Of a DNA stretch of 64,000 bases, positions 5,901 to 40,045 are shown piece by piece. The first letter of the stretch is position 1. Every line of letters starts with the position of its first letter. The stretch covers positions 1-64,000 of the forward strand of contig CACNDI010000007.1 of the NCBI GenBank assembly GCA_902619165.1, read 5' to 3'. Made by a program: the position numbers and the translations under genes. The DNA comes from an uncultured Alphaproteobacteria bacterium. Its GTDB lineage: Bacteria; Pseudomonadota; Alphaproteobacteria; Rhodobacterales; Rhodobacteraceae. The notes beneath the pieces were generated by a model. It was not told where the DNA came from. It saw nothing but the letters and a program-made list of their open reading frames with translations, and did no database searches.

Positions 5901-5932
5901 TGAAGTGAAAATCCTGTCTGGAGATTAACGTG

Positions 5933-5964: not shown

Positions 5965-5985
5965 TCCAAGTAAATGGTTAAAAAA

Positions 5986-6951: not shown

Positions 6952-7021
6952 TATTGACAACTCCTTTGTTAACTCAAAAGTCTAATTACATCGAACAATG
7001 TCACTAGATCCTCACTTAAAT

Positions 7022-7050
7022 GTGTCAAAAATATTAAAATTTTATGAATA
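7022..7050 (-). promoter_or_regulatory. Candidate PHO box upstream of pstS
   Basis: Read on the minus strand, 7-nt half-sites TATTCAT, TTTTAAT and TTGACAC start exactly 11 nt apart with 4-nt spacers. This is the geometry of PhoB sites (CTGTCAT repeated every 11 nt). Match to the consensus is moderate, but the pattern resembles the array in front of ugpB. It would place pstS under PhoB control independently of the phoR gene upstream. Confidence 0.5.
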
Positions 7051-7092
7051 AATAAGATATTGAAAACATAAATTTTTTTTTAAATTTTTAAT

Positions 7093-8385: not shown

Positions 8386-8445
8386 CTTAAAACCAACTCA
8401 GAATATACATTTTATCTTACAGTGATTCATTGTTAAATCTAGTTA

Positions 8446-9699: not shown

Positions 9700-9708
9700 G
9701 AGGAAAGC

Positions 9709-10713: not shown

Positions 10714-10741
10714 AATAGACCTCGGACAGACGTTACAAAAA

Positions 10742-10763
10742 AATTATGACAAAAATATGTAAG
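10742..10763 (-). promoter_or_regulatory. Candidate PHO box upstream of the gapdh-arsJ unit
   Basis: On the minus strand, half-sites CTTACAT and TTGTCAT start 11 nt apart, and a TGTAAC-like element continues near the next turn. A CATAAT hexamer overlaps the second half-site and could serve as a -10 element. The ribosome site GAGG lies shortly before the gapdh ATG at 10713. This suggests that arsenate detoxification is switched on by phosphate starvation rather than by an ArsR repressor. Confidence 0.5.
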
Positions 10764-10816
10764 AAAATACAATTAATTGTCTATAGTTGAGGATAGAAAA
10801 ATCACGGATTAAAAAA

Positions 10817-12241
10817 ATGGAAAAGTTAAAAAAATTTTTTATTAATGGGACGTGGGTAAACCCAAGATCAGACGAAACAATGGCTGTGATAAGCCCATCG
10901 GATTTAAGACAAATCGGGACCGTGTCACTAGGAAATGAACAGGATGTCAATGATGCAGTTCAGTCGGCGAAAAAAGCATTTACAAGCTTTTCCAAAACAA
11001 AAAAGAAAGATAGAATAGATCTCTTGAAGGATCTCAAGAGAATAACTGAGAGAAGGTTCGAAGATTTAGCCCAGGCCATGCGCGAAGAGATGGGTGCACC
11101 TATATCAATGGCACGATCTGCCCAAGCGGATGCAGCCCTAGGGCACTTGGAATCATTTATTGGTGCGCTGGCAGAGCTTAAGGAAAGAACAGTTTTGGAT
11201 AGTGGGGATGTTCTTTTAAAAGAACCGGTAGGGATTTGCGGACTAATAACACCTTGGAACTGGCCTGTAAATCAAATCGCACTGAAGGTTATACCAGCTT
11301 TAGCAACTGGCTGTACCTGTATCTTGAAACCGTCAGAGTACACACCCTTATCTGCGATGGTTTATACCGAAATCATTGAAGAGGCCGGCTACCCAGCTGG
11401 TGTTTTTAATTTGGTTAACGGTGTCGGAGATACGGTGGGTAGGGCAATGTCAAAGCATCTAGAAATTGATATGATGTCTTTCACTGGATCGACAAGAGCT
11501 GGAATCATGGTAACCAAAGATTCTTCTGAGACCATTAAAAGAGTTACTTTAGAACTTGGCGGAAAATCACCTAATATTGTTTTTTCGGATGCAAATCTAG
11601 AAAGGGATATAAAATATTCGATCAATGAGTGCATGTTCAATACGGGTCAATCTTGTGATGCACCGACGAGGCTACTAGTTGAACACTCTTGTTACGAAGA
11701 GGTTTTAAAAATAGCAAAGAAGTCAGCAGAAGAAATTTTAATCGGAGATCCAACTAAAGAGGGAGATCACATAGGGCCCTTATTTGATAAAATACAATTC
11801 GATCGAGTTCAAAATATGATTGATTTGGGAATAAAAGAAGGAGCCTCCGTCTTAACAGGAGGTTTAGGTAAGCCTCACGGTTTAGAAAAGGGTTGGTTTG
11901 TTAAACCAACAATTTTTTATAATGTTAGCAATACTATGAGGATCGCTAGAGAGGAAATTTTCGGACCAGTTTTAGTTATAATGCCATTCAAGAATGAGCA
12001 GGAAGCGATATCTATAGCAAATGACTCACCCTATGGCTTAGCGGCCTATGTGCAAACGTCTGACATTAAAAAAGCAGAACGCGTGAGTTCACAATTGAGA
12101 GTCGGGGCAGTTCACATAAATGGAGGTGGATACAATTATGGAACACCTTTTGGTGGATACAAACAATCTGGCAATGGCAGAGAGGGTGGTTTAATGGGTT
12201 TGGAGGATTATTTGGAAACTAAATCGTTACATGGGCTTTGA
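10817..12241 (+). CDS. NAD(P)-dependent aldehyde dehydrogenase
   Basis: An ALDH superfamily enzyme of 474 residues. It has the cofactor motif TPWNWPVNQIALK (145-157), catalytic E246 in LELGGKSPNIV and catalytic C280 in NTGQSCDAPTR. The GQSCDAPTR form resembles the CddD-like branch of unknown or broad aldehyde specificity. ATG 10817 is preferred over a TTG at 10787 because the homologous fold begins here. It is divergent from gapdh and converges on a DMT permease with a 15-nt overlap. Substrate unknown; an aldehyde from phosphonate or lipid breakdown is only a guess from context. Confidence 0.88.
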   Translation: MEKLKKFFINGTWVNPRSDETMAVISPSDLRQIGTVSLGNEQDVNDAVQSAKKAFTSFSKTKKKDRIDLLKDLKRITERRFEDLAQAMREEMGAPISMARSAQADAALGHLESFIGALAELKERTVLDSGDVLLKEPVGICGLITPWNWPVNQIALKVIPALATGCTCILKPSEYTPLSAMVYTEIIEEAGYPAGVFNLVNGVGDTVGRAMSKHLEIDMMSFTGSTRAGIMVTKDSSETIKRVTLELGGKSPNIVFSDANLERDIKYSINECMFNTGQSCDAPTRLLVEHSCYEEVLKIAKKSAEEILIGDPTKEGDHIGPLFDKIQFDRVQNMIDLGIKEGASVLTGGLGKPHGLEKGWFVKPTIFYNVSNTMRIAREEIFGPVLVIMPFKNEQEAISIANDSPYGLAAYVQTSDIKKAERVSSQLRVGAVHINGGGYNYGTPFGGYKQSGNGREGGLMGLEDYLETKSLHGL

Positions 12242-13153
12242 TATGTATTTTGTCGACTTGCTAAATAGTACCTCAATAAAGCCGGCTATCACAATTGCAA
12301 GTGCTCCAAGCCATTGAATTAAAGTCATTCTTTCCTCTGGAAGTAAAATACTAGCCGTAACAACAGCAACTATGATCTCTGACATAAGGAGAATAGCTAC
12401 GCGTCCAGGAAACAAAGTCTGTGAGACTTTAAAGACAACCATAAAGCTTGGCATGAATATAATTGTAGACCATAGAAAAACATAAGGGAAAAAATCAATT
12501 ACAATCTTTGTCGGTATTTCAGTCTGGCCGATGAAAAAAAATACCAATGCTAATGCGCCTGCACTGGTGAATGCATAAACGAAGAACGTTAGAGGAAATA
12601 TTTTTATTCTTGGCGAGCGCTTCAACAATCCCGATCCAATAGCAAAAAGAAGACCTGATAAAAAACCAAAAAAGTCACCTATCTTCAATGTAAAATATGA
12701 AGTATCTTTATTTGATAGAAGCAAAAAAAGCCCGAATAAAGCAAAAATAATTGCGATTGTCCGTCTGACGGTAAATCTCTCTGATAAAAAAATCGTGCCG
12801 AAAATAGTTCCCCAGATCGGGCTAAGATAAAACAAGAGGGTTGCCCTGACAACAGTAGTCTCTAAAATCGCTCCCGCGTAAAGCGTGAAAGCAAGTCCTA
12901 TAGTAAGACCAGATAATAGAGTAGACCAATCAGTAAATTTAAATTGATTGATCTTGAAAAGTGCCATTGGGGATAGAACTAGAAGTGGGCAAGCATTGAT
13001 AAAAAAGATACTCCAATAGCTATCCAATCCTGCCAATGACAGTTCCCTTAATGGTATCCAATAAAGACCCCATAAGCCTCCGCTAATTAAAAGCGCTAAG
13101 CTTAAAGATGTATCTGAGTATTTTGGCTCTATAGTGATTTTTTCACGTATCAT
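12227..13153 (-). CDS. DMT-superfamily (EamA) permease
   Basis: An inner-membrane protein of 308 residues with about ten hydrophobic helices in two EamA repeats. Family features include ISGGLWGLYWIPLRELS near the start and LLFYLSPIWGTIFGTIFLSERF at the end of the first repeat. EamA proteins export metabolites or amino acids; the substrate cannot be read from sequence. Its end overlaps that of the aldehyde dehydrogenase by 15 nt, tail to tail, and it is divergent from the iron-type alcohol dehydrogenase at 13260. Confidence 0.85.
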   Translation of the reverse strand: MIREKITIEPKYSDTSLSLALLISGGLWGLYWIPLRELSLAGLDSYWSIFFINACPLLVLSPMALFKINQFKFTDWSTLLSGLTIGLAFTLYAGAILETTVVRATLLFYLSPIWGTIFGTIFLSERFTVRRTIAIIFALFGLFLLLSNKDTSYFTLKIGDFFGFLSGLLFAIGSGLLKRSPRIKIFPLTFFVYAFTSAGALALVFFFIGQTEIPTKIVIDFFPYVFLWSTIIFMPSFMVVFKVSQTLFPGRVAILLMSEIIVAVVTASILLPEERMTLIQWLGALAIVIAGFIEVLFSKSTKYISKPM

Positions 13154-13259
13154 TTACAGCTTCTCAATGTTTCAGTGTTCCTCAGCCACTTAAAAGTTTT
13201 TCACAAACCTTTCCTAAAACAATCTATTCTGTAAAAAGAAAACAGTAAATTGAGAAAAA

Positions 13260-14435
13260 ATGTTTATAGAGGATGAAAAAATTTTAACACCACAGGATTG
13301 GGTATTCCCAATACCAATAGCTTATGGACCTGGACGTATTTGGGAGGCAGGTGATTATTGCACAAAATATGGTATTTCAAATCCTTTAATTGTCACTGAT
13401 AAAGGAAGCAAAAACCTATCATTTATAGATATTTTAAAAAAGGCTTTGAAAAAGAAAAATGTTTCTTTTGGTTTTTACAGCGGTATAGCGCCTAACCCAA
13501 ATGATAAAGATTTAGAAATGGGGTGCGACCAGTTCTCAAAAGACAAACATGATGGGATAATAGCAATTGGTGGAGGCAGCGCATTGGATGGAGGTAAAGC
13601 CATTGGCTTGACTGTTAATAGTGGTAAAGATCTATGGAGATTTGACTACGAGAAAAATCCTCCCAAAATAGACAATAATAGTGTGTTCCCAAAGCTTATT
13701 ACCATTCCGACAACAGCGGGTACTGGAGCGGAAACCGAAAGTACCGCGATGGTAACGCATTCAAAAAAACTAATGAAGTTCTGTGTTTGGCATCCTATGT
13801 ACAAGCCCTGCCAAACAATATTAGATCCAATGGTAACACTGGATCTCCCTTTTAATTTAACCGCATGGACTGGATTGGATGCACTTACGCATGCAATTGA
13901 AGCGTATTTGGTTCCTGACTTTAACCCTATCTATGATGCAATGGCATTGGAGTCGTTACACCTCATATGGAAATATTTGCCAAGAGCATGTGATAATCTT
14001 AATGACTTGAACGCAAGATCGGGAATGCTTATAGGGTCATGTATGGCCGGTGTGTCATTTTTAAAGGGTCTGGGGTTGGTTCATGCAATATCTCACATGA
14101 TTGGCGCGGAGTTTAACACTCATCACGGCTTGACCAATGCTATTATTTTGCCGACGGTCTTAGATTTCAACTTGGTGAATATGGGTGAAAAGACAAATAG
14201 AATAACCAAATCACTTGGTTTAAAGGAAGATACCCAGCATCATTTAATTTCATGTATTAAACAATTATTAACACAATTAGAAATCCCGGAGTCACTCTCA
14301 GAAATTGGAGTCCCTGATAGTTGTTCCAAAAGGATTGCAAAAAAAGCTATGTTTGACACAGCTACGTCAACAAATCCGGTTAAGGTGAGCGTTACCGACA
14401 TTGAAAAATTAATAAACGCGTCAATTATTAGTTAA
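13260..14435 (+). CDS. Iron-containing (group III) alcohol dehydrogenase
   Basis: A metal-dependent alcohol dehydrogenase of 391 residues. It has the NAD-binding GGGSALDGGKAIG (104-116), IPTTAGTGAETE, and predicted iron ligands D207, H211, H275 and H289 in DALTHAIE, GLVHAISH and NTHHG. It would interconvert an alcohol and aldehyde with NAD(P)H. Together with the nearby aldehyde dehydrogenase it could oxidise an alcohol to an acid, but no substrate is indicated. Some relatives reduce phosphonoacetaldehyde in phosphonate biosynthesis, yet no biosynthetic partner such as phosphoenolpyruvate mutase is present here. Confidence 0.88.
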   Translation: MFIEDEKILTPQDWVFPIPIAYGPGRIWEAGDYCTKYGISNPLIVTDKGSKNLSFIDILKKALKKKNVSFGFYSGIAPNPNDKDLEMGCDQFSKDKHDGIIAIGGGSALDGGKAIGLTVNSGKDLWRFDYEKNPPKIDNNSVFPKLITIPTTAGTGAETESTAMVTHSKKLMKFCVWHPMYKPCQTILDPMVTLDLPFNLTAWTGLDALTHAIEAYLVPDFNPIYDAMALESLHLIWKYLPRACDNLNDLNARSGMLIGSCMAGVSFLKGLGLVHAISHMIGAEFNTHHGLTNAIILPTVLDFNLVNMGEKTNRITKSLGLKEDTQHHLISCIKQLLTQLEIPESLSEIGVPDSCSKRIAKKAMFDTATSTNPVKVSVTDIEKLINASIIS

Positions 14436-14464
14436 AGAATTCATATTTTTAACCTGTTATTTTT

Positions 14465-14504
14465 CTTTCACAAATATGAAATCATTCTGTCACTTTGCTG
14501 ATCT
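14465..14504 (+). promoter_or_regulatory. Candidate PHO-box array upstream of phnC
   Basis: Four elements begin 11 nt apart at 14465, 14476, 14487 and 14498: CTTTCAC, ATGAAAT, CTGTCAC and CTGATCT. The third is a near-perfect PHO half-site. The array ends 25 nt before the preferred phnC start. No clear -10 hexamer stands out, so promoter function is inferred from phase and from the role of the downstream operon. Confidence 0.5.
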
Positions 14505-14529
14505 AATTATGTGTTTAGAAAGTAAAATC

Positions 14530-15336
14530 ATGCATCTACAAGTATCAAAACTTAAAAAAAAATTTGGTTCGACAGTCGCAATAAATAGCGTTTCTTTTGA
14601 ATCTACTAAAAATGAGTTCATAGGTATCATCGGTCGTTCTGGCGCAGGAAAGTCAACGCTCCTCCGGGTTTTAAATAGACTGACTACTGAAACTGAAGGG
14701 AAAGTGTTTGCCGGGAGCATAAATATTCTGGAGCTCAAGGGTTCAGAGAAAAGGCAATGGCAATCTCAATGCGCAATGATTTTCCAGCAATTTAATTTAG
14801 TGCCTCGCTTGGACGTGATCACAAACGTCATATTGGGTCGCTTGTTCTACCAGTCTACCTTGCGGTCAACACTCAGATTTTTTACTAAAGAAGAGCGTTC
14901 GGATGCCCTTGATTTGATGAATCGTTTCGGTGTCGCTCCTACAGCTTTGCAAAGAGCAGAAACTTTATCTGGAGGTCAGCAACAGAGGGTAGCGATCTGT
15001 AGAGCGATGATGCAAAATCCAAAAATAATTTTAGCAGATGAGCCAATTGCATCCTTGGATCCATTAAACGCACGGCTAGTAATGGAAGCACTGCAATCAA
15101 TTAATTCGAACGAAAAAATCAAAGTGATATGTAATTTGCACACTTTAGATACAGCAAGAACATATTGCGACAGGATTATTGGAATGCGGTCTGGAGAGAT
15201 AGTATTTGACGGCAAGCCAAGTGAATTGAGCGATGCGAAAGCAAGAGAAATTTACGGTGTTGAGGCTGATGAGGCATTCGAAGCGTCAGTAACCTCAACG
15301 TCCTTAAATACAACCCACATAGGGATTGCAAGTTAA
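14530..15336 (+). CDS. phnC: Phosphonate ABC transporter ATP-binding protein PhnC
   Basis: ABC ATPase of 268 residues from ATG 14530. Walker A is GRSGAGKS (35-42), followed by the PhnC-type FQQFNLVPRLDVITNVILGRL, signature LSGGQQQR and Walker B IILADEPIASLDP. It energises import of phosphonates through PhnE. Starting at 14530 gives the usual PhnC length and removes an odd 18-residue leader from ATG 14476, which overlaps the PHO-box array. First gene of phnC-phnD-phnE-phnE, with phnD 22 nt downstream. Confidence 0.94.
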   Translation: MHLQVSKLKKKFGSTVAINSVSFESTKNEFIGIIGRSGAGKSTLLRVLNRLTTETEGKVFAGSINILELKGSEKRQWQSQCAMIFQQFNLVPRLDVITNVILGRLFYQSTLRSTLRFFTKEERSDALDLMNRFGVAPTALQRAETLSGGQQQRVAICRAMMQNPKIILADEPIASLDPLNARLVMEALQSINSNEKIKVICNLHTLDTARTYCDRIIGMRSGEIVFDGKPSELSDAKAREIYGVEADEAFEASVTSTSLNTTHIGIAS

Positions 15337-15358
15337 TATTTAAAATGAGGAGTTCACG

Positions 15359-16312
15359 ATGTTAAAGAAGTTTTTTTTAGTATCTACTTTGTTTCTGTTT
15401 TTTGGAGCAACCTATGCTGAGCCTAATCCAAACTATAAGGGCCCAACATACGATCTAAGTAAAATACAACCAGAGTTTAGAATTGGCTTTTTAGGTGACG
15501 AAGCCGCACAAGATATAATTGCAAGGAACCAGTGCTTGCCACCGTACTTTGAAGCTGCGTATGGAGTTCCAGCAAAAATGTTTACGTTTACTGACTACGC
15601 TGGAACGATGGAGTCAATGCTAGGTGGTAATATAGATTATGCATGGTTTGGTGCATCGGGCTATGCCGGAATGTACTTAGCAGATCCTGATGCTGCCGTT
15701 CCAGTGTTGACAAGAATGCAACCAACTGGAGATACAGGCTATTATTCAATAATGGTAACTAGAAAAGACTCAGGGATAAACAATCTTGATGATATGAAAG
15801 GTAAAGTGCTCGGCTTTGCAGATCCGAATTCAACCTCAGGATACCTAATCCCATCAGTTGAATTACCTGACATTTACAATATAAATATGGCTGAATACTT
15901 CAAAGATACCCTTTTCATGGGAGGGCACGAAAATGGAGTGCTCGGCGTGTTGAACGGTGATGTGGATGCGGCAGTAACTTGGGTGTCAGGCGTCGGTGAA
16001 TGGGACGAGGGCTACTCTTCAGGTAACTTAAGAAGAATGGTTGAAAAAGGTCTGCTTAATATGGACGATATAAAGCAAATATGGTCATCAAAGCTTATCC
16101 CGAACGGTCCAATGGTTATGCGAAAAGCTATACCAAAAGAAGCAAGAGACGTAATGGTTGGCATGAAGCAGTGGATTCACGAAAACGACCCGAAGTGTAG
16201 CGAAAATATTGCAAACGGTATAGTAAGAGCGTGGGTTCCTGTTGATCACTCCTTTTATGAGGTGGTTGTGAAGGCCAGAAAGGCTAAGCTCGAAGCTAAG
16301 AAGAAAAACTAA
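15359..16312 (+). CDS. phnD: Phosphonate ABC transporter substrate-binding protein PhnD
   Basis: A periplasmic protein of 317 residues with a clear Sec signal (LFLFFGATYA, cleavage near residue 20). The segment FADPNSTSGYLIPS is diagnostic of PhnD, and FGASGYAGMYLADP belongs to the same group. It binds phosphonates, classically 2-aminoethylphosphonate, and passes them to the PhnE permeases. A strong ribosome site (GAGGAG) precedes the ATG. A perfect 11-bp stem-loop follows the gene. This copy resembles E. coli PhnD more closely than the second binding protein at 36.8 kb does. Confidence 0.95.
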   Translation: MLKKFFLVSTLFLFFGATYAEPNPNYKGPTYDLSKIQPEFRIGFLGDEAAQDIIARNQCLPPYFEAAYGVPAKMFTFTDYAGTMESMLGGNIDYAWFGASGYAGMYLADPDAAVPVLTRMQPTGDTGYYSIMVTRKDSGINNLDDMKGKVLGFADPNSTSGYLIPSVELPDIYNINMAEYFKDTLFMGGHENGVLGVLNGDVDAAVTWVSGVGEWDEGYSSGNLRRMVEKGLLNMDDIKQIWSSKLIPNGPMVMRKAIPKEARDVMVGMKQWIHENDPKCSENIANGIVRAWVPVDHSFYEVVVKARKAKLEAKKKN

Positions 16313-22326: not shown

Positions 22327-22405
22327 TTTTCCCCTCAATCTGAATTTTTTTACAAATTATGATACATATAAATATAAAAAAATCAACAATAATAATGCTT
22401 TACTT

Positions 22406-22433
22406 AGTCATATTTATGTCATATAAATGTCAT
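22406..22433 (+). promoter_or_regulatory. PHO-box array at the start of the Sel1-repeat gene
   Basis: Three half-sites AGTCAT, TGTCAT and TGTCAT start at 22406, 22417 and 22428, exactly 11 nt apart. CATAAT at 22434-22439 follows and overlaps the annotated ATG. Oriented rightward, toward the Sel1 gene and then phnG. The nearness to the ATG makes either a leaderless start or a start further downstream likely. Confidence 0.65.
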
Positions 22434-23206: not shown

Positions 23207-23235
23207 CTGTCATGTTCTTGTCATAATTTTCAAAT
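23207..23235 (+). promoter_or_regulatory. PHO box upstream of phnG
   Basis: CTGTCAT at 23207 and TTGTCAT at 23218 are 11 nt apart and nearly match the E. coli consensus; a third weaker element TTCAAAT starts at 23229. TAAATA at 23235-23240 lies about 10 nt after the second site and fits a -10 element. This should drive the phnGHIJKLN operon. The box begins 2 nt after the Sel1 gene ends. Confidence 0.8.
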
Positions 23236-31187: not shown

Positions 31188-31570
31188 TCCTTTGAAAAAC
31201 CTTTTTTGCGATGCTAAACAATTGTCAGAATAAACGGGAAACGACTTGGGCTATGTGAAAACTTTAATAAAGATGGAAGAGTTTATAGCAGAAGAAGTAT
31301 TACATTAATTCAAGAAATAACTATTAAATAATTTAACAAAGCAGAAGGTTGAAATTCTTTGTTTAGTGGATTTTCAGCAATATAGTTGTTTAGTACCTTT
31401 TGTGATATCCCAACAATCATATCTGCCATATTCTTTCTCGTGAAACCCCGTTTCTATAATTGCAAATACCGAGCTTGCTGAAATCACTTGCTAAGTTATT
31501 TTTTTAGTTAGTCGCATTTATGTAATAATTTTATGATATCAACAAAATCAATTTATAGAAAATCGAGGCA
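31188..31570. other. Sparse gap with one very short open frame
   Basis: No gene that I can support. A minus-strand frame of 39 codons (ATG 31429, stop 31310) has a purine-rich stretch before the start but no recognisable product. The stretch is AT-rich and low in coding signal, and it opens the accessory segment that runs to about 33.4 kb. Confidence 0.3.
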
Positions 31571-31576
31571 ATGTTG

Positions 31577-31798
31577 ATGAAAAATTATTTTTTGTTAAAT
31601 GTTTTAGATAACGAGCCGTTTGATGAAGGCAAAGAGTATTGTACTGCGGCGGAGTATTTTCAATATTTATGCGATTATTACTCGAAATTTCAAAAAGAAA
31701 ACCCAGATGAATATGTATTTCTTTATGGAGATAGATTTCCAGAAGAGTTGGCCTACTTCGAACTCGATAAAGGAATGCAAGATGATATTGTCCATTAA
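31577..31798 (+). CDS. Small acidic protein of unknown function
   Basis: A protein of 73 residues. ATG 31577 is preferred because GAGG lies 8 nt upstream; ATG 31571 would be too close to it. The product is acidic and aromatic-rich with TAAEYFQYLCDYYSKF and YVFLYGDRFPEELAYFEL, likely helical, with no membrane segment. I recognise no family. The ribosome site and compact composition favour a real gene. It is alone, with wide gaps on both sides. Confidence 0.5.
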   Translation: MKNYFLLNVLDNEPFDEGKEYCTAAEYFQYLCDYYSKFQKENPDEYVFLYGDRFPEELAYFELDKGMQDDIVH

Positions 31799-31927
31799 TT
31801 TTGAGTAAAATTCATAATTTTGCCATTACCTATAGCTACCGCTTGGTCTAGCCTTTCAACGCATGGGACGCATGGGATGCTCATGTAGCATGTTCTTGGA
31901 GTGAGCAGCAGATGGTAAGTTACTTTA

Positions 31928-32170
31928 ATGTATCAAAAAGAAAACGGCCCAGTGGGAAGGGAAATACACGCGACTGTTTGGGTATTATCTATCTTATTAA
32001 TGTTAAGATTTATTACATTCAGATAAAAATTTTTTAAACCATCACTTGAGTTAATAATTTTCATTCAATCTAAATTAATTGAAAAAATATAGATAGAATC
32101 TGAGAACTTTCTTACGTACAAGTCATTAATTTTTCATAAATTCATCAATAATTTGTTGCATATTTTTTTC
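31928..32170 (+). repeat. Direct duplication, copy A
   Basis: This stretch and 33188-33441 share a common order of similar blocks: ATGTATCAAAAAGAAAA, a CGGCCCAGT block, GGGAAATACA, a TTGAGTTAATAATTTT block, ATTCAATCTAAATT, GAGAACTT, and a GTCATTAATTTTTCATAAAT block. Copies differ by scattered substitutions and a 17-nt indel. In copy A the left arm of the copy B hairpin is absent. It ends just before the ribosome site of the gene at 32196. Confidence 0.85.
32121..32159 (+). promoter_or_regulatory. PHO-box-like array in repeat copy A
   Basis: Elements AGTCAT (32121), TTTCAT (32132), CATCAA (32143) and TGTTGC (32154) start 11 nt apart. TTATAA at 32174-32179 could be the -10 element. Only the first two resemble PHO half-sites well. 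The same array is kept in copy B. Confidence 0.45.
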
Positions 32171-32195
32171 ATTTTATAAGGCAAAGGAGTCGGCT

Positions 32196-32549
32196 ATGAA
32201 TTTTAAGAAACTTGAAGCAATGTTTGAAACCGCAAATAATGGAGACGTATCTCTTCTTAAAAAATATTTGTCTGAAAATTTTTTTTGGCGATCAATAACT
32301 CAATCAAGTCTTACAAAAAATAAACGTGATAAGTCGGAAACTATCGCCTGGTTCGAAGAACAGCCAAGATCAAATATTGGAAAAATAACTTGTCATTTCG
32401 AAAACGATAAAATTATAGTTTACCAACACTCGGTTCCAGATCATGTCGAACCTGATGGAGTGATCTTGGGGTTTGTAAAAATTGAGAAGAATGAAATTAT
32501 AGAAATGTCTCATGCAAGGGGTAAAAGACCTTTAAGCAAGAAAGGGTAG
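32196..32549 (+). CDS. SnoaL/NTF2-like protein
   Basis: A protein of 117 residues with the alpha-plus-beta pattern of the NTF2/SnoaL fold: an N-terminal helix FKKLEAMFETANNGDVSLL, then strands ending in EIIEMSHARGKRP. The family includes small-molecule isomerases and many proteins of unknown role. A strong ribosome site (AAAGGAG) lies before the ATG. It directly follows repeat copy A, in the same place that the acyltransferase gene follows copy B. Function unknown. Confidence 0.65.
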   Translation: MNFKKLEAMFETANNGDVSLLKKYLSENFFWRSITQSSLTKNKRDKSETIAWFEEQPRSNIGKITCHFENDKIIVYQHSVPDHVEPDGVILGFVKIEKNEIIEMSHARGKRPLSKKG

Positions 32550-32627
32550 TCTTGAACTCAGTCCAGTCTGTAGTTCTAGTCGTGAGTTTCTTTATGCTGC
32601 CAATACCAAAGATGGTATTAGGATTAT

Positions 32628-33050
32628 TCACCTTGAAAAAAGCAGATACAAGTCGGGATTGTCTATCAACAGCATGGCAACTGCAGTACCACATATCGCG
32701 GATCCAATCATTAGTGCTCTGTCGCTCCATTGCATGCCGACATATATCCATCCGATGGCACTAAAGAAATAACACAATTGCCCCAAAATATACATTTTTC
32801 CTGATGTAAGAAATACTCCTAATACACACAATAGCATGGCTCCCCATTTAACATACCAATCTTTTGTACCAGTAGGCGTAAGAGGTTTAATGTCATCGTA
32901 CTCGCCTTGTAATTCTTCTAGCTCTTGAGCAAGCCTCTTTTTTTCAGACGCTAACTCCATTGCTAGTCTTCCTGCTTTAGTAGTTATATTATGTAATTTT
33001 CCGTCTTCACCTAATTCAGTGATGGTATCAGCGTCTTTTTCCTTCGACAT
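32628..33050 (-). CDS. Coiled-coil and membrane protein of unknown function
   Basis: A protein of about 140 residues from ATG 33050, which has AAAGGAAA upstream; a longer reading from 33116 is rejected. Residues 28-52 (LAMELASEKKRLAQELEELQ) look like a coiled coil. Three or four membrane helices follow from about residue 68 (KWGAMLLCVLGVFLTSG, FFSAIGWIYVGMQW, IGSAICGTAVAMLLI). Small proteins of this design occur in phages and in marine bacteria. I recognise no specific family. It is the only gene oriented leftward between the two repeat copies. Confidence 0.65.
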   Translation of the reverse strand: MSKEKDADTITELGEDGKLHNITTKAGRLAMELASEKKRLAQELEELQGEYDDIKPLTPTGTKDWYVKWGAMLLCVLGVFLTSGKMYILGQLCYFFSAIGWIYVGMQWSDRALMIGSAICGTAVAMLLIDNPDLYLLFSR

Positions 33051-33088
33051 TTTATTTCCTTTTGAGGATTTAATTTCAATCGCGCCAA

Positions 33089-33116
33089 AATTTAGCAATA
33101 CTAATAATTTAGTCAA
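33089..33116 (-). promoter_or_regulatory. Possible sigma-70 type promoter for the membrane protein
   Basis: On the minus strand TTGACT and TAAATT are separated by 16 nt, about 40 nt upstream of the ATG at 33050. A reasonable vegetative promoter in AT-rich DNA, where chance matches are common. Confidence 0.35.
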
Positions 33117-33204
33117 ATAAAAATTAAAAATAGTCTTACAACACGCTTCTAAAGTCCAATTTTATATATTGATTAGCTGTTACATCAATGTATCAAAAAG
33201 AAAA

Positions 33205-33227
33205 GGGCCGTCTGCTTACAACGGCCC
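33205..33227 (-). terminator. Hairpin with T-run on the minus strand
   Basis: GGGCCGT at 33205-33211 pairs with ACGGCCC at 33221-33227 across 9 nt. On the minus strand it is followed by TTTTCTTTTT, the shape of a rho-independent terminator. No leftward gene ends close by; agt copy 2 ends about 1 kb earlier. A second inverted repeat, AAATACA and TGTATTT, lies at 33239-33256, so the stretch may also be part of a small structured RNA. Confidence 0.5.
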
Positions 33228-33399
33228 AGTTGGGAGGGAAATACATGCGTGTATTTACAGATTGTCTAACTTTTAAATGTTAAAGATTGATGACAATTTG
33301 ATGAAAATTTTTAAATCATCATTTGAGTTAATAATTTTATTATTCAATCTAAATTTGTCGAAAAAGTACAATCAAAATTTGAGAACTTACTCACGTGGA

Positions 33400-33440
33400 T
33401 GTCATTAATTTTTCATAAATTCATCAATTATTTGTTACAT
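33400..33440 (+). promoter_or_regulatory. PHO-box-like array upstream of the acyltransferase
   Basis: TGTCAT (33400), TTTCAT (33411), CATCAA (33422) and TGTTAC (33433) start 11 nt apart, rightward. The first and last elements resemble PHO half-sites. The array lies 34 nt upstream of the preferred acyltransferase start and overlaps the longest possible reading frame, so that frame's upstream ATG at 33399 is unlikely to be the start. Confidence 0.5.
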
Positions 33441-33473
33441 CTTTTAACAATCAACAGGCTAGGAGTATTGATT

Positions 33474-34316
33474 TTGCAAAATAGCAGTCAGACACACCCT
33501 GTGTTTTCATTCGCCGACGGAGAAATGGGTGTAATTCTCAACAAAATAATCCGCTACTTAGAAAAATTAACGGGTCAACCGCGTATAGAAAAACTGTATT
33601 TTGACTATGTAAATGACAATCTAAATCCAGAATATTTTTGGTCAGATGCACTTGACCGACTGCGTATCGAACTAGATGTTCGTCGAGAGGTTTCAAATGG
33701 AATAATGGCATCCATACCGTCTACTGGACGGGTCGTGACCATCGCTAATCATCCATATGGAGTCATAGATGGACTTGCCTTGTGTTCAATTATGGCCGAG
33801 GTGCGGCATGACTATAAAATCATTACCCACAGGGTATTGAGACAGGCACCAGCGGTAATGGATAAAATTCTGCCAATAGATTTTGCAGAGACTAAAATTG
33901 CGCTTAAAACAAATATGGAGTCTCGTCGCAGAGCGTTGGAGCATCTCAGAAATGGCGGAGCACTTATCATCTTCCCAGCAGGTGCCATATCATTGGCGCC
34001 AAATATATTTGGGACTGCGAGTGATGCGCCGTGGAAAACATTTGTTGCGAAATTAGCATTGCAGCCTGACACAACTACTATTCCGTTCTTCTTCGAGGGA
34101 CGTAATTCAGCGTTATTTCAAATTGCAAGAAGAGTAAGCTTTACTCTTGGTTATTCTCTGATGTTTAGAGAAATTTGTAGAAGAATTGGGACAAATTTAA
34201 CGGTCACGATGCGCCCCCCCATACACAGTTCCGAACTAGCTGAAATGGAAAACCGGAATGTGGTCACAGAATATCTCAGGCGCCAAACCTATAATTGGTC
34301 TTATAAGGCTTTTTAG
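33474..34316 (+). CDS. PlsC-like acyltransferase
   Basis: A glycerolipid-type acyltransferase of about 280 residues with the catalytic block NHPYGVIDG (HxxxxD-like) and the substrate-site block IIFPAGAIS. The TTG at 33474 is chosen because AGGAG lies 8 nt upstream; earlier codons lie in the PHO-box array. It probably transfers an acyl chain to a lysolipid or ornithine-type lipid. Its tail overlaps agt copy 2 by 41 nt on the opposite strand. With agt and plcP it makes a lipid-remodelling cluster. Acceptor unknown; relatives of OlsA are possible. Confidence 0.8.
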   Translation: MQNSSQTHPVFSFADGEMGVILNKIIRYLEKLTGQPRIEKLYFDYVNDNLNPEYFWSDALDRLRIELDVRREVSNGIMASIPSTGRVVTIANHPYGVIDGLALCSIMAEVRHDYKIITHRVLRQAPAVMDKILPIDFAETKIALKTNMESRRRALEHLRNGGALIIFPAGAISLAPNIFGTASDAPWKTFVAKLALQPDTTTIPFFFEGRNSALFQIARRVSFTLGYSLMFREICRRIGTNLTVTMRPPIHSSELAEMENRNVVTEYLRRQTYNWSYKAF

Positions 34317-35388
34317 ATATCTGATACCTGTCTACAATCTTGTGAGCATTGGTTAGATGGCTAAAAAATATATCCGTTGCCGACTTCCATGAGAATTTCT
34401 CCGCATGCATACGAACAATTTTTCGGTCAATTTTTAGGGCAGCTAGACAGCCTTTCTTTAAGTCATTGTCCAAGATGCCTGCACCAGATTCACCTACGAC
34501 ATCTATTGGACCCGTGACTGGAAAAGCTGCTACAGGCAGACCGCAACCCATTGCTTCTAACAGAACAAGGCCAAAAGTATCTGTTCGACTAGGAAACACA
34601 AAAACATCCGCGCGATTGTAGAATGCTGGTAAGTTCTCCGTTGGATGCGCATCATGAAAAATAACTTTGGGATATTTTTTCTTCAGTGTTTTAAGAGCGG
34701 GCCCTTCTCCAACAACATGTTTTTCACCTGGTAGATCCAAATCTAAAAATCCACTAAGATTTTTCTCAACAGCTACTCGCCCAACATAAATAAAAACAGG
34801 TTTCGTTGCGTTATCCAGTTTTGCGATACTCGCGTTTAGCTTTTCGATGTTTCCAGTGGGTTTCTTAACGTTTCTGTTACATGGATTAAAAATGGTAAGA
34901 TCAACCCCTCGCGGCCACAATACAGGGTTTCCGATTTGCCATTTTTCTAGGTCTCTTATAACAGTGTTGGTTGGTGCCATCACATTTTTAGCCGGACTGT
35001 GAAACCAACGCAAGAGTGCGTATGTAGCTCCAAGCGGCAATTTAGTCCTAGAACGTATATACTCTGGAAAACGGGTGTGGAATGCAGTTGTGAAATCTAA
35101 ATTATGTGAAGTTGCGTAACGCCGGGCAGCCAGACCAAGTGGCCCCTCAGTTGCAATATGAATTGCGTCTGGTTGAGACACCTGAATTTTTTCAGCAATC
35201 TTTTTTCCTGGAAAAATTGAAAGTCTAATTTCCGGATAAGTTGGACAAGGAATCGTACGAAACGATTCAGGGGTAATAAGTTCAGCTTTATGCCCCATCT
35301 GGACCAAATGATCGCGTGTTTTTGTTAGTGTTTGTACAACTCCATTGACTTGTGGGTACCACGCATCTGTGATAATTAAAATTTTCAC
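34276..35388 (-). CDS. agt: Glycosyltransferase family 4, Agt-like (copy 2)
   Basis: A GT4 enzyme of 370 residues. It begins MKILIITDAWYPQVNGVVQT and contains IYVGRVAVEKNLSGFLDLD and FPSRTDTFGLVLLEAMGCG. It is clearly paralogous to the gene at 91-1083. It should add a sugar to diacylglycerol made by PlcP. The start overlaps the plcP stop by 4 nt, so the two are translationally coupled. Compared with copy 1 it has a longer C-terminus and central part. Confidence 0.9.
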   Translation of the reverse strand: MKILIITDAWYPQVNGVVQTLTKTRDHLVQMGHKAELITPESFRTIPCPTYPEIRLSIFPGKKIAEKIQVSQPDAIHIATEGPLGLAARRYATSHNLDFTTAFHTRFPEYIRSRTKLPLGATYALLRWFHSPAKNVMAPTNTVIRDLEKWQIGNPVLWPRGVDLTIFNPCNRNVKKPTGNIEKLNASIAKLDNATKPVFIYVGRVAVEKNLSGFLDLDLPGEKHVVGEGPALKTLKKKYPKVIFHDAHPTENLPAFYNRADVFVFPSRTDTFGLVLLEAMGCGLPVAAFPVTGPIDVVGESGAGILDNDLKKGCLAALKIDRKIVRMHAEKFSWKSATDIFFSHLTNAHKIVDRYQISKKPYKTNYRFGA

Positions 35389-36245
35389 GGACTGTTACTC
35401 TTGCTAAGTAGTTCACCAAGCGCTGCTGTTGGCCCCCCATCAATCCCGTCTTTCACTGATGATACATCAGCCACTGAAGCAATATTTTTTGAAATTTTAT
35501 CCCAATTTAGTAATTCCAATTTACCGTCGTAATGCTCTACCAGTGCAGAGCGAGATTCTACCCAATCACCGTCATTTCCGTATATGATTCCGTCTGTAAT
35601 TTTTAACTCTGGTTTGTGTATATGCCCGCATATAATTCCGCTACATCCGCGCCTTCGAGTTTCTGTTACCATTGCATGTTCAAATGCAGAAATGAATGAA
35701 ACTGCCAATTTGACTTTAAGTTTTAAGTATTGAGAAAACGACCAATAAGGCAGTTTGAATGCGTCACGCCAAATATTTAGCCAGCGATTCACGCGAAGCA
35801 AAATCTGATAAGCTTTGTCACCAATATACGCTAACCAGCGCGCATGTTGAATGACATGGTCAAAAAGATCACCATGCACGATCCACAGTCTCTTACCGTC
35901 AGCAGTTTCATGGATGTAGTCAAGGCATATTTTGATCTCACCAAAGGTCACATTAACAAATTGACGCGCTGCCTCATCATGGTTTCCTGGAATAAACACT
36001 ACATTCGTACCATGACGAGCTTTTCTGAGGAGTTTTTGCACGATGTCATTGTGAGCTTGTGGCCAATACCAACGCTTTTTCAATTGCCAACCGTCGATGA
36101 TATCTCCGACCAAAAACAAATTTTCAGATCGCGTACACTTTAAAAAATGCAGAAGTTGATCTGTACTGGCGCCAGGAGTACCAAGATGTATATCTGAAAT
36201 CCAGATACTTCTATAGATCTTGAGGCCATCAAACCGATTATCCAT
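35385..36245 (-). CDS. plcP: PlcP-type metallophosphoesterase (phospholipase C)
   Basis: A calcineurin-fold phosphoesterase of 286 residues related to LpxH. Metal-site motifs are ISDIHLGTPG (D18, H20), VGDIIDGW (D48), IPGNHD (87-90) and CGHIHKPE. In marine bacteria this type cleaves phospholipids to diacylglycerol during phosphate starvation and is paired with agt. Here agt follows with a 4-nt overlap and a PHO-box-like array lies upstream. No signal peptide. An LpxH role is less likely because of the partner gene. Confidence 0.92.
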   Translation of the reverse strand: MDNRFDGLKIYRSIWISDIHLGTPGASTDQLLHFLKCTRSENLFLVGDIIDGWQLKKRWYWPQAHNDIVQKLLRKARHGTNVVFIPGNHDEAARQFVNVTFGEIKICLDYIHETADGKRLWIVHGDLFDHVIQHARWLAYIGDKAYQILLRVNRWLNIWRDAFKLPYWSFSQYLKLKVKLAVSFISAFEHAMVTETRRRGCSGIICGHIHKPELKITDGIIYGNDGDWVESRSALVEHYDGKLELLNWDKISKNIASVADVSSVKDGIDGGPTAALGELLSKSNSP

Positions 36246-36290
36246 GAACCTGCCTTCTACTCTTAATCATCTAGATTGCATCCAAAGTTT

Positions 36291-36330
36291 TTTTCAAAAA
36301 TATTTCAGATTAGTAACATTTTTGTGAATA
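36291..36330 (-). promoter_or_regulatory. Candidate PHO-box array upstream of plcP
   Basis: On the minus strand four elements start 11 nt apart: TATTCAC, ATGTTAC, CTGAAAT and TTGAAAA. The first two fit the PHO half-site best. It would place the plcP-agt pair under PhoB, as shown for such pairs in other marine bacteria. Confidence 0.55.
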
Positions 36331-36728
36331 GAAAAACCTTAAAAAAAAAAAAGCGACATTTAGTTGATCTCAAATCTTCGACGCAAAAATAAAGTGGAGC
36401 TCAGCACAGAGCCCAATAACCAGTCTTTGATGAACAAAAACCTAAATAAAATGTTATTAAAGTAGACTAATCTAAATCAGATTAAGGAGATACCTGCTTT
36501 CTCTTTTAGCCATTTACCCATGCAACCAAGCGCTTCTGACCACTTGAACTTTGGATTGGATGAGAAAACTGATGACTAAAAAAATTCATAATAATGTTAT
36601 CTTTTTGTATTATTTATCTGAATACAATTAGATCTCGTTTCCCTCAAAGGGAGAATCTAGTGCCTGTAGATTTCTCCCTTTTTTCTGAAAAAGAAATAAT
36701 ATCGTGGATCTCTTATGAGGGTATAAAG
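36331..36728. other. Gap between plcP and phnD2
   Basis: No supported gene. A short inverted repeat (TAATCT and AGATTA, 5-nt spacer) lies at about 36468-36484. A terminator-shaped hairpin lies at 36646-36684. A minus-strand frame without a start codon ends near 36480 and reads NPKFKWSEALGCMGKWLKEK, which might be a decayed gene. Confidence 0.4.
36646..36684 (+). terminator. Orphan rho-independent terminator
   Basis: AAAGGGAGAATCT at 36646-36658 pairs with AGATTTCTCCCTT at 36668-36680 with one extra base, and a T-run follows to 36684. It is oriented rightward, but the two genes to its left run leftward. No rightward gene ends before it within 2 kb, so it may close a small RNA or a lost gene. 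Confidence 0.7.
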
Positions 36729-36757
36729 TTGTCAAAAATCTATTAGGTTTTTGTCAC
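36729..36757 (+). promoter_or_regulatory. PHO-box array upstream of phnD2
   Basis: TTGTCAA (36729), CTATTAG (36740) and TTGTCAC (36751) start 11 nt apart. The outer two are good half-sites. The array ends 49 nt before the preferred phnD2 start. Confidence 0.6.
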
Positions 36758-36806
36758 AAAAGCGTTAATGAACTTTTTAATAATTGGGAAAAGCAAGGAG
36801 TTAATT

Positions 36807-37685
36807 ATGAAATTTGTTATTAAAACTATATTGTTAATTTGCTTATCCCTAGGGATAGGCTCAGTAGTTTCAGCGAAAAATTACAAAATGGCTGTTACTG
36901 ATATTGAAGGAATGGATGCTCTTATCTCTGAGTGGGGGCCATTCAAGGACGCTTTAGAAAAAGCCACTGGTGATACTTTTGAATTTTTTGCCGTAAGCAA
37001 TCAAACTGCAACAGCAGAGGCATTGAGAGGAAAGAAATTAGATTTTGCAATAACAGGTCCTGCAGAGTATGTGGCAATTAACAAGCTTACAAACTCTCAA
37101 GCAATGATTGCGATTGCGAGACCAGATTATTACTGCGGTATTGTCGTTAAGACAGGAGTAGGAATAATGAAGATGGAAGATTTAAAAGGTAAAGCAGTCT
37201 CTTTTGCTAAGCCTGGGTCGACATCTGGACATTTTTGTCCGATGCAAGTGATGATGGACCATGGAGTAGACCCAATGAAAGACATCAAAGTAATCCATAC
37301 AAAGAAGGCATTGCAACATGCTGGGCTAGAGAGAGGTGATACAGCGGCAATTGGTGTCCGAATTAGCTCTTGGATCAAATATAATAGAACGCCCGAAAAT
37401 CAAGGTCAGTTCAAGGTGTTAGCTAGGTCAGGTGATCTGCCCTACGATATGATGATGGGTGGAGGTCATTTAACGCAGGCTGAAATAGATAAAGTAACCA
37501 AGGCAATGAAAGATAATGAAGATTCGCTGATTGCTGGAATTTTAGCTGGGCTTGATGATAAAGGTAAGCCAGCCAATGATAAATATATTGGCACAAGATT
37601 GCTGGAAGTTAATGATTCGGACTATGATGTGGTAAGAGCCATGTACAGGACAGCTGGATTGCCCGAATTTGATATTCAAGACTAA
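36807..37685 (+). CDS. Second phosphonate/phosphite-type ABC substrate-binding protein
   Basis: A periplasmic protein of about 292 residues from ATG 36807 (AAGGAG upstream; an ATG at 36768 is rejected). It has a Sec signal (LLICLSLGIGSVVSA). The PhnD-family pattern SFAKPGSTSGHF is present, and the pocket segment DFAITGPAEYVAIN differs from the first PhnD. The PhnD/PtxB/HtxB group binds phosphonates, phosphite or hypophosphite, and this divergent copy may serve one of these. No ptxD-like dehydrogenase is visible. A hairpin follows the gene, then its own ATPase and permease. Confidence 0.88.
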   Translation: MKFVIKTILLICLSLGIGSVVSAKNYKMAVTDIEGMDALISEWGPFKDALEKATGDTFEFFAVSNQTATAEALRGKKLDFAITGPAEYVAINKLTNSQAMIAIARPDYYCGIVVKTGVGIMKMEDLKGKAVSFAKPGSTSGHFCPMQVMMDHGVDPMKDIKVIHTKKALQHAGLERGDTAAIGVRISSWIKYNRTPENQGQFKVLARSGDLPYDMMMGGGHLTQAEIDKVTKAMKDNEDSLIAGILAGLDDKGKPANDKYIGTRLLEVNDSDYDVVRAMYRTAGLPEFDIQD

Positions 37686-37702
37686 TCCATAGATGTATGG
37701 AG

Positions 37703-37728
37703 AGCGCTCTATGCTAGTATAGGGCGCT
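37703..37728 (+). other. Stem-loop between phnD2 and phnC2
   Basis: A 10-bp stem: AGCGCTCTAT at 37703-37712 pairs with ATAGGGCGCT at 37719-37728, one G-U pair, 6-nt loop. It sits 17 nt after the phnD2 stop and ends 6 nt before the phnC2 ATG, so it could also limit translation of phnC2. Confidence 0.8.
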
Positions 37729-37734
37729 TGATAT

Positions 37735-38502
37735 ATGATTGATTTAGAAATAAAAGATTTAAAAAAAAGCTTCGGTAGCGAATCTGTATTAAAAGGTCTT
37801 TCTTTTAGCGTTAATTCGCAAAGTTTATTAGCGATAATTGGTTCTAATGGAGCAGGTAAATCTACCTTGCTGAGATGTTGCAGCCGCTTAATTGAGCCAT
37901 CGAGTGGAAGTATCAAAGTTTTTGACAAGGAAATAACAAATTTAAATAGTCATCGGCTACGACAAATACGAAGAGATGTAGGGTTTATTTTTCAACGGCA
38001 TAATCTAGTTCCTCGACTGAGTGTGTTGTCTAATGTTATTCATGGAGATTTTGGAAATATCACTAGCGGTTTAAAGGGAGTAACACGATGGTTTCATTTT
38101 CTGGCACCCCAAGCTTCTAGGTCAAGGGCAATGGATTGCCTACGGAAGGTGAATTTATCTCACCTTGCGATGAAACGAGTTGACACCCTTTCAGGAGGGC
38201 AATCTCAAAGAGTTGCAATAGCAAGAGTTCTGATGCAAAAACCCAAATTATTACTTGCTGATGAGCCAGTCGCTAGCCTTGACCCAGTAGCTGCAAAAAC
38301 AGTTATGGAGCTTCTCACAGAACTATGTAAAAAAGAAAAGATGACAGTCATATTTACCTCCCACAATGTTGAAGATGCAGTAAAATATTCTGACAAAGTT
38401 TTAGCTTTAAAAGACGGTGAAATAAGTTTCTTCAAAGCAAGTAAAACGATAGATCAAAAAAAATTAATTGCACAATACGACAGCTCTGTAAGATTCGTTT
38501 AA
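37735..38502 (+). CDS. Phosphonate-type ABC transporter ATP-binding protein (second system)
   Basis: An ABC ATPase of 255 residues of the PhnC group: Walker A GSNGAGKST, FQRHNLVPRLSVLSNVIHGDF, signature LSGGQSQRVAIA and Walker B LLLADEPVASLDP. It energises the second importer. The gene starts 6 nt after a stem-loop with little room for a ribosome site, so its translation may be limited relative to the binding protein. The permease gene follows 5 nt on. Confidence 0.9.
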   Translation: MIDLEIKDLKKSFGSESVLKGLSFSVNSQSLLAIIGSNGAGKSTLLRCCSRLIEPSSGSIKVFDKEITNLNSHRLRQIRRDVGFIFQRHNLVPRLSVLSNVIHGDFGNITSGLKGVTRWFHFLAPQASRSRAMDCLRKVNLSHLAMKRVDTLSGGQSQRVAIARVLMQKPKLLLADEPVASLDPVAAKTVMELLTELCKKEKMTVIFTSHNVEDAVKYSDKVLALKDGEISFFKASKTIDQKKLIAQYDSSVRFV

Positions 38503-38507
38503 TTGAT

Positions 38508-39353
38508 ATGAACCAGAAAATGAAAACCCCAAAAAGATTTGAACAAATATCATCCTTTCAATATATGTCCATTATTGTTTTCTTTTTGATTATGGTGTGG
38601 GCTCTTGATGGCTCCGGTTTTTCCTTTAGCAAATTATTTGGAAGCAGTGAGTACATTGGTAGGTTTCTCAGTGAAGCCTTTCCTCCTATTAGCGAGCATA
38701 GATTAAGCTGGAATGATTTTAACAGGTATATTTTGCTCTTAATTGAGACGGCTCAAATGGCAATTTTTGGTACGTTTTTAGGAATAATTGTAGGTTTTTT
38801 ATTTGCGCTGATGGCCTCAAGAGGCTTATTCGGAAATAGCATCCCGGCAAGAATGCTTCAAGTAGTTGCAAAGTTTCTAATAACATTTATGCGAACAATA
38901 CCTGATTTAGTATGGGCAATAATATTTGTAATGGTTGTAGGGCTTGGAGCTTTTGCAGGCACATTAACGATTGCAATAGACACAATAGGATTTGTAGGTA
39001 GATTTTTTGCTGAAGAGATGGAGGATGTTGAAAGGAGTGCAGCTGAAGGTATAGAGAGTAGTGGAGCGTCAAAGCTAGACAGTACTTTTTCAGCAATCAT
39101 TCCTGCCGCCATGCCTGGCTTTATAACGACATCGCTTTTCGCCTTAGAAAAGTCTGTAAGAGGATCAGTGGTGTTAGGTCTAGTTGGTGCTGGTGGAATC
39201 GGAATGGAATTAAACAGTCTTTTTAATTGGATGGCTTACGATAGAGCTGTTGTAGTAATAGGCTTAATGTTTGTTTTAATATTGTTCGTAGAACAAATTA
39301 GCAGTTATGCTCGCTTAAAGATACTTGATGGATCTGTTAAGAGTGGGAAATAA
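38508..39353 (+). CDS. Phosphonate-type ABC transporter permease (second system)
   Basis: A PhnE-group permease of 281 residues with helices near 20-36 and throughout the second half. Family motifs are FMRTIPDLVWAIIFVM, GRFFAEEMEDVE and EKSVRGSVVLGLVGAGGIG. Only one permease is present, so it probably works as a homodimer, unlike the two-PhnE first system. Last transport gene before the methyltransferase, 26 nt away. Confidence 0.9.
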   Translation: MNQKMKTPKRFEQISSFQYMSIIVFFLIMVWALDGSGFSFSKLFGSSEYIGRFLSEAFPPISEHRLSWNDFNRYILLLIETAQMAIFGTFLGIIVGFLFALMASRGLFGNSIPARMLQVVAKFLITFMRTIPDLVWAIIFVMVVGLGAFAGTLTIAIDTIGFVGRFFAEEMEDVERSAAEGIESSGASKLDSTFSAIIPAAMPGFITTSLFALEKSVRGSVVLGLVGAGGIGMELNSLFNWMAYDRAVVVIGLMFVLILFVEQISSYARLKILDGSVKSGK

Positions 39354-39379
39354 CGCATTTGGAAAAGAAAGGTAGAAAA

Positions 39380-40045
39380 ATGTCAAAAACAGATACGGCG
39401 TATCAGTATTGGAATACTGAATGGGATAATAAAATTGTTACCGAGAAATGGACTGTAGCTGAGCCAGAGGTGCTCGCAACTTTCGAAAATATCGGGCCAT
39501 CTAAAAAGGTTTTAGATCTCGGTGCCGGGGTAGGCCGGCATAGCCTTCCTTTTGCGGAAAACGGTTGTGAGGTTACTGCTTTTGATGCAGCAGAAAGTGG
39601 ACTTGCTTCTATTGAGCAGTTAGGAAAAGAAAAAAGTGTTTCTATAAAAACAGTACTTGGAAAAATGGATCAATTACCCTTCGCTAATGAGTACTTCGAT
39701 CACGTGTTATCGTGGAATGTGATTTACCATGGTAATCACAATATTTTAATTGATACTGTAAATGAGATAAAAAGAGTACTTAAACCTGGAGGCACGTTTC
39801 ATGGAACCATGCTCCCTAAGAAAAGAATTGACCTTTTAAAAAGTGAATTCGATTGCAAAGAGATTTCCACAAACACTTGGATAGTCAATTCAGACTCTGA
39901 AAGCGATAAGGCTCATCCTCATTATTATTGTACTGCCAACGAATTAACGTCGATATTTAAGGATTTTGAATTTAATCGGCTTACTATGCAAGAACATGAT
40001 AAACCAAACTCATGGCATTGGCATCTGATGGTCGAAAAGCTGTAG
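39380..40045 (+). CDS. Class I SAM-dependent methyltransferase
   Basis: A methyltransferase of 221 residues from ATG 39380. The SAM motif is VLDLGAGVGRHSLPFA, followed by FDHVLSWNVIYHG and KRVLKPGGTFHGTML. It looks closest to TehB-like or general class I enzymes. It has three cysteines but not the arrangement I would expect of an arsenite methyltransferase. It lies 26 nt after the second permease on the same strand, so cotranscription is likely. Substrate unknown; methylation of something imported by this system is only a guess. Confidence 0.85.
   Translation: MSKTDTAYQYWNTEWDNKIVTEKWTVAEPEVLATFENIGPSKKVLDLGAGVGRHSLPFAENGCEVTAFDAAESGLASIEQLGKEKSVSIKTVLGKMDQLPFANEYFDHVLSWNVIYHGNHNILIDTVNEIKRVLKPGGTFHGTMLPKKRIDLLKSEFDCKEISTNTWIVNSDSESDKAHPHYYCTANELTSIFKDFEFNRLTMQEHDKPNSWHWHLMVEKL

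Follow-up and report, generated by a model that had tools for sequence, protein, structure and literature searches.

A block of about 250 bp that occurs twice in the window (the whole stretch of 64,000 nucleotides that was analysed) is, with moderate confidence, a cassette head, which starts at the end of a junction element and carries a minus-strand RNA gene and a Pho-box-type promoter. Such a head would begin where a junction element of ~70 bp ends; its minus strand would carry a small structured RNA gene, with a terminator pointing back to the junction, and the opposite side of the head would hold a promoter of the Pho-box type that reads into the cassette gene. Copy B would be an intact head preceding an aminolipid-type acyltransferase gene, in a gene cluster for phosphonates and lipid remodelling. 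Copy A, which precedes a SnoaL-like gene, would be a relative of that head in partial decay, having lost the RNA part and kept the promoter part. It would have arrived with a two-cassette segment next to this cluster, or have persisted as one in a single lineage.

Copy A (31919–32166) and copy B (33179–33445), both on the plus strand, are 84% identical outside 32 gap columns when 31919–32170 is aligned globally with 33179–33450 (278 columns, 206 identities). Their local alignment score of 228, compared with 22.6 on average and at most 37 for 300 pairs of dinucleotide shuffles, rules out a chance likeness in AT-rich DNA. This is the comparison that the earlier note had proposed as a check, and identity lies far above that of shuffled AT-rich sequence; its description of two diverged direct copies ~1.26 kb apart was borne out (1260–1279 nt from start to start), as was the loss from A of 17 nt that include one arm of a hairpin present in B. 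Each block stops just 5' of a gene start, A before the ATG at 32196 and B before a TTG at 33474, or else before position 33471, which is an ATG in relatives, and the likeness spans almost the entire intergenic stretch as far as the ribosome sites. The expectation that further copies would be found before other phosphate-stress genes failed: no third full copy was found in the same genome (51 contigs, 88% complete), and the other copies in the genus sit in gene-cassette islands.

A begins where a dispersed junction element (31852–31918) stops, the two abutting directly. B starts at the base that matches the start of A, but without an adjoining junction element, and a profile search found none there; the cassette nature of B therefore rests on its homology with A and with the island copies. 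Two other identities of the block were discarded. It is not an ancient part of acyltransferase genes, as it could not be recognised by eye in alignments of the 350 bp upstream in the relatives L126 (83%) and L127 (67%), and it does not encode a minus-strand protein, as six-frame translations revealed no long frame shared by A and B.

The hairpin that had been noticed in the duplicated block is real in B, but it looks like a part of a minus-strand RNA rather than of an mRNA leader: read on the minus strand, it has the tail TTTTCTTTTT, so that the terminator has the minus orientation. The predicted structured RNA gene (~135 nt, 33195–33327, minus strand) would end at this intrinsic terminator (33205–33227, 8-bp stem) and may be transcribed from a candidate promoter, TCGACA-16-TAAAAT (33334–33361, minus strand), a consensus match only. 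In three orthologues of B the -10 hexamer is TATAAT (two) or TAAAAT (one), and in A it is GAAAAT; the -35 hexamer is not conserved. Promoter-like sites number 21 in 31200–34600, against 12.1 in shuffles, and terminator-like sites three, against 2.3 expected, the terminator of the predicted RNA having the most G-C pairs.

The minus strand from 33327 to 33195 folds at -27.7 kcal/mol (z -3.3), and one of 200 shuffles folded as well. The corresponding z values were -3.4 for L124, -2.3 for L122, -3.5 for L045, and -2.5 for L044, compared with 0.1 for A and -1.8 for the plus strand of B. Thus, the fold was better than that of shuffles in all five non-A sequences folded singly, namely B, two orthologues, and two of the three island copies, this set leaving out L043 and the remaining orthologues. 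With nine sequences, A excluded, RNAalifold predicted the terminator, which is the best conserved part, and a second hairpin. That hairpin is kept in B, in its second lineage B2, and in the island copies, partly through a compensating or G-U change, and is broken in A. When A is added to an alignment, 96.9% of its cells pair, compared with 36–58% when partners are slid. Covariation is thin, with one pair changed on both sides; the covariation score was reached by 33 of 500 shuffles and the percentage paired by 77 of 500. Cells that can pair on one strand only number 15 for the minus strand (eight of them the invariant closing T-G pair, seven otherwise) and one, in A, for the plus strand.

A covariance model built from the B-type and island sequences, with A excluded, gave 16 matches in 10 of the 22 genomes of the genus (eight B, five A, and three in islands) and no RNA copy beyond these known places. 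A itself scores 80.6 bits with this model. Its promoter part is retained in length and its RNA part reads as decayed; a point against this reading is that the RNA part is only modestly more diverged than the promoter part (81% and 86% identity, respectively). No Rfam family matched the window at gathering scores. We also noticed a second Pho-box-like match (11/14) inside the predicted RNA (33290–33307, minus strand).

It is quite possible, if short of an even chance, that the hairpin is merely a terminator shielding the array or the membrane gene, and that there is no functional small RNA. The terminator being the best conserved part, the thin covariation, and the abundance of sigma-70-like sites in this AT-rich stretch all fit such a role. 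However, a terminator alone would account neither for the second hairpin, kept in B, B2, and the island copies but not in A, nor for the fold of the whole RNA in each of the five non-A sequences folded.

The promoter part of B contains a Pho-box-like site before the acyltransferase gene (33399–33416, plus strand), which consists of two 11-nt units and matches at 11 of 14 positions. This is a fair match, a score that 3% of 500 shuffled B leaders attained. For A the match is 10/14, attained by 19% of these shuffles and no better than chance. Of the 11-nt array that had been reported as the same before both genes, what stands is that both blocks stop shortly before gene starts and that the array in B is a pair of Pho-box-like units; the match in A is unremarkable. 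The window has 13 sites of at least 11/14, compared with 3.9 (sd 1.7) for 20 shuffles, and the best one (13/14) precedes a phnG-like gene. Judging from these matches, PhoB may act at the heads. Strong Pho-box-like sites were seen at 22405–22433, before a SEL1-like gene as judged by eye, and at 23207–23224, before the phnG-like gene; the names of the phn, PlcP, and SEL1 genes come from sequence and position, with no profile.

The acyltransferase gene (33471–34316, plus strand) matches PF19576 and PF01553 above the cut-offs. The NCBIfam models for OlsF (E 8e-37) and GlsA (E 6e-20) match it too, neither reaching its equivalog cut-off, and we call it OlsF/GlsA-like, of the aminolipid O-acyltransferase group. 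The adjoining glycosyltransferase and PlcP-like genes (34304–36441) are absent here from all four readable genomes without the two-cassette segment (G004, G006, G009, and G013). This neighbourhood resembles plcP-agt lipid remodelling clusters in that PlcP-like and glycosyltransferase genes adjoin the acyltransferase gene, and passages of one paper on such clusters report Pho boxes before their genes (PMC4796936). Unlike those promoters, the box described here lies in a head common to two unrelated genes, next to a predicted RNA gene. Farther along, G013 lacks most of the stretch from phnD to the start of a methyltransferase gene, and G006 lacks a similar stretch; the affected stretches of the window are 37048–39635 (L038, L123) and 36569–40039 (L041, L128), and either deletion or an assembly chimera may be responsible.

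The intact junction element, or core (31852–31918, plus strand), was matched by nhmmer with 53.6 bits (E 9e-16), and the same search found no second convincing element in the window (next best E 2.7). A 27-mer of the element is present with up to three mismatches in 18 of the 22 genomes of the genus, and its backward control is present in none. In the fetched loci of the genus we counted 118 non-identical elements (up to four mismatches in the 27-mer, copies with identical near flanks dropped), and 146 pass E 1e-3. Conservation declines at about -38 and +32, giving the length of ~70 bp. Neighbouring elements are arranged head-to-tail in 76 of 84 pairs, with a median spacing of ~0.86 kb. The segments between them recur in different genomes over more than 90% of their length, as exemplified by one of ~435 bp found in seven genomes, and flanks are reassorted: 16 of the 18 left flank families with at least two members have at least two right partners, and all 25 such right flank families have at least two left partners. 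Relative to the element, the longest ORF of a cassette points either way about equally often (32 in one direction, 35 in the other, nine cassettes without one). Two stretches, L149:1416–2281 and L112:3289–4744, resemble two fused cassettes with a decayed inner junction element.

In sequence, the element's left half goes with the flank on its left, and just the final bases go with the flank on its right; this places the switch point within the intervening 27-bp stretch, also the most conserved one. In the loci of the genus, same-orientation sites bound exchangeable cassettes, as in a gene-cassette array in the general sense; the window itself has one intact and one decayed element. The junction elements would be sites of directed recombination. 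The 23-mer of the element, with up to two mismatches, was absent from a sample of 384 other genomes of the class, which included none of the same genus; an exact 23-mer search of viral contigs and a blastn search of phages and plasmids with one copy found none. It is not a tRNA remnant, as it gave no profile match and just a 7-base blast match. We recognised no description of this cassette system in the literature covered, which excluded most subscription journals.

In several respects these loci resemble integron cassette arrays and CALINs (attC clusters without an integrase): cassettes stand in tandem, an element of ~70 bp marks their junctions, one orientation prevails, cassettes recur across genomes while flanks reassort, and the genes are small and of unknown role. 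Unlike in integrons, the element is conserved in sequence and has no attC boxes, and, contrary to textbook cassettes, the genes face either way relative to it. The box GTTRRRY was found in four of the 118 elements and RYYYAAC in two, compared with eight in a control stretch; the missing boxes speak against the element being an attC. Three composite element sequences folded as DNA no better than shuffles (z 0.17, 0.07, and -0.21). Over 115 elements, alifold gave -6.4 for the given strand, lower than any of 20 column shuffles, which averaged -2.3 and reached -5.6 at best; the other strand gave -2.7. The integron integrase model TIGR02249 had no match at its cut-off in any of the 22 genomes (58–91% complete).

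Recombinase genes of another kind lie near the islands. A scan of 16 island loci for tRNAs found genes for tRNA-Thr or tRNA-Leu in 10, and in six of these a gene for a DUF6538-type tyrosine recombinase (four) or a broken gene or remnant (two) begins ~50–80 bp past the tRNA gene. The DUF6538 domain was shown for the L045 protein, and the remaining recombinases are its relatives by tblastn. In a comparison of positions, 11 of the 15 DUF6538-type loci of the genus, remnants included, lie within 10 kb of a junction element, compared with none of the 26 XerC/XerD-like loci of element-bearing genomes. As for the other four DUF6538-type loci, L262, L263, and L264 have no element in the stretch fetched, and G004:C63 was not fetched. 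The recombinases of L045 and L112 gave weak matches to Xer models, far below the cut-offs, and TIGR02249 was not among the hits. The ORF list of the window contains no recombinase between 26000 and 40000, and a DUF6538-type recombinase gene is missing from most of the 40 loci examined together; this recombinase may also act on the tRNA end only.

As separate observations, in L260 the final 18 nt of tRNA-Thr occur as identical copies on either side of 12.2 kb (4091–16297), and this stretch, probably a whole integrated element, contains two junction elements and a gene for a DUF6538-type recombinase, and L044:10643–11992 and L043:3017–4372 encode mutually alike island proteins of ~450 aa, polymerase-like by eye and without a Pfam family.

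The islands can be compared with the tycheposons and other tRNA-anchored islands of marine plankton. Tycheposons were reportedly first described in Cell in 2023. The likeness lies in the tRNA genes in 10 of 16 islands, in the recombinase adjoining the tRNA in six, and in the 12.2 kb of L260 enclosed by tRNA 3' ends. The tycheposon passages of PMC10872708 that were compared, 12 of 14, describe tRNA genes together with a tyrosine recombinase and, in the case of another island, repeats of a tRNA end; unlike the present loci, no internal cassette junction element unrelated to tRNA is mentioned in those passages.

There is a substantial chance, which we put somewhat below even, that the junction elements are nothing more than ordinary dispersed repeats, whose flanks are shuffled by homologous recombination with no dedicated recombinase. 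The want of an integron integrase above the cut-off in the 22 genomes would be expected of such repeats, and so would loci mostly free of recombinase genes and a switch point in the most conserved 27 bp. Ordinary repeats, however, would hardly explain the common orientation of neighbours and the recurrence of whole cassettes, a left half that goes with the left flank when just the final bases go with the right one, or the proximity of DUF6538-type but not XerC/XerD-like loci.

The history of copy A was read from the segment that contains it. The segment (31218–32607, 1.39 kb, limits set by the ends of blastn alignments) carries A, the SnoaL-like gene, and a 73-aa ORF, arranged as two cassettes. 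Among the 22 genomes of the genus, the window's own included, it is present in five (G000, G003, G005, G007, and G016) and absent from five (G004, G006, G009, G011, and G013), the junctions being read directly; the other 12 show no close acyltransferase and neither A nor B at the locus, in genomes 58–91% complete. Assemblies with isolate names AG-... (uncultured Alphaproteobacteria bacterium) we take to be single-cell genomes of the GORG-Tropics set. B was seen in four of the five genomes with the segment (the contig of G016 stops before it) and in four of the five without it (the contig of G011 stops inside it).

At the left end of the insert, 31200–31480 aligns with the cassette starts of three other loci and continues into their junction elements, indicating, by this alignment, a decayed element at about 31223–31292 (plus strand), which the profile search did not report. 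The insert therefore reads decayed element, cassette, element, cassette; its right end has no match elsewhere. The 73-aa ORF of the first cassette (31577–31798, plus strand) belongs to no Pfam family. The SnoaL-like gene of the second (32196–32549, plus strand) is a weak call, with Pfam matches below the cut-off (DUF4440, E 0.025; SnoaL_2, E 0.13). Compared by hhalign with a profile of four cassette-borne proteins, themselves only weak SnoaL hits, its product gave E 5.6e-5 and a probability of 66%; in G016 the gene carries a 1-nt deletion and is frameshifted.

The DUF6552 membrane protein gene (32628–33050, minus strand, PF20189 above the cut-off) lies outside the insert. It is kept in all five genomes without the segment, with 96–98% protein identity in the four compared, and this rules out the proposal of the earlier note that it was inserted together with the SnoaL-like gene. 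The idea of promoter capture, put forward in the same note, survived in part. Relatives without the SnoaL-like gene do show a single copy, B standing alone in four of them and being cut by the contig end in the fifth (G011); however, the membrane gene is not part of the insert, and A is unlikely to be a recent copy of this B. Over the first ~160 nt, A is 81–82% identical to both lineages of B, which are 92% identical to each other. The equal distance of A from both lineages argues against recent copying from this B, and the 18–19% difference between A and B, compared with 8% between the B lineages, indicates that A and B split before the B lineages did, unless A evolved faster. As far as these sequences go, insertion of the segment in one lineage and its loss in the other would both fit.

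Three further heads, in G004, G020, and G003, each follow directly after a junction element. Those of G004 and G020 have an acyltransferase gene remnant of ~54 nt close behind, and G020 has three small, weakly SnoaL-like genes further downstream in the same direction; the profile match of the window's SnoaL-like product (E 5.6e-5) is to these. Taken together, these remnants and genes indicate that the head was joined to an acyltransferase gene in at least two settings, and that SnoaL-like genes stand downstream of it in two.

A plain duplication of the leader, in which the promoter region was copied in tandem, the SnoaL-like gene came between the copies, and the nearby dispersed repeat is incidental, would suit a likeness that reaches almost to the ribosome sites, just two full copies in the genome, and a B without an element, but it is improbable, as A starts within a few bases of the end of an element, the three heads of other genomes are placed likewise, and the insert opens with a second, decayed element.

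Beyond the cassette-head reading of the block, we propose, as a doubtful suggestion, that the genus has its own cassette-shuffling system, with a non-attC site of ~70 bp and a non-IntI recombinase, for which the DUF6538-type enzyme beside tRNA genes is a candidate, and that its cassettes bring their own heads. If this is true, regulation would move along with the cassette, as some heads would bring a small RNA gene together with a promoter for nutrient stress. Streamlined ocean bacteria are thought to leave little space for mobile DNA. With an integron-like array built on an unfamiliar junction element, they would have a means of exchanging single genes, and a head with its own RNA gene and a phosphate-stress promoter would show genes arriving pre-equipped for regulation.
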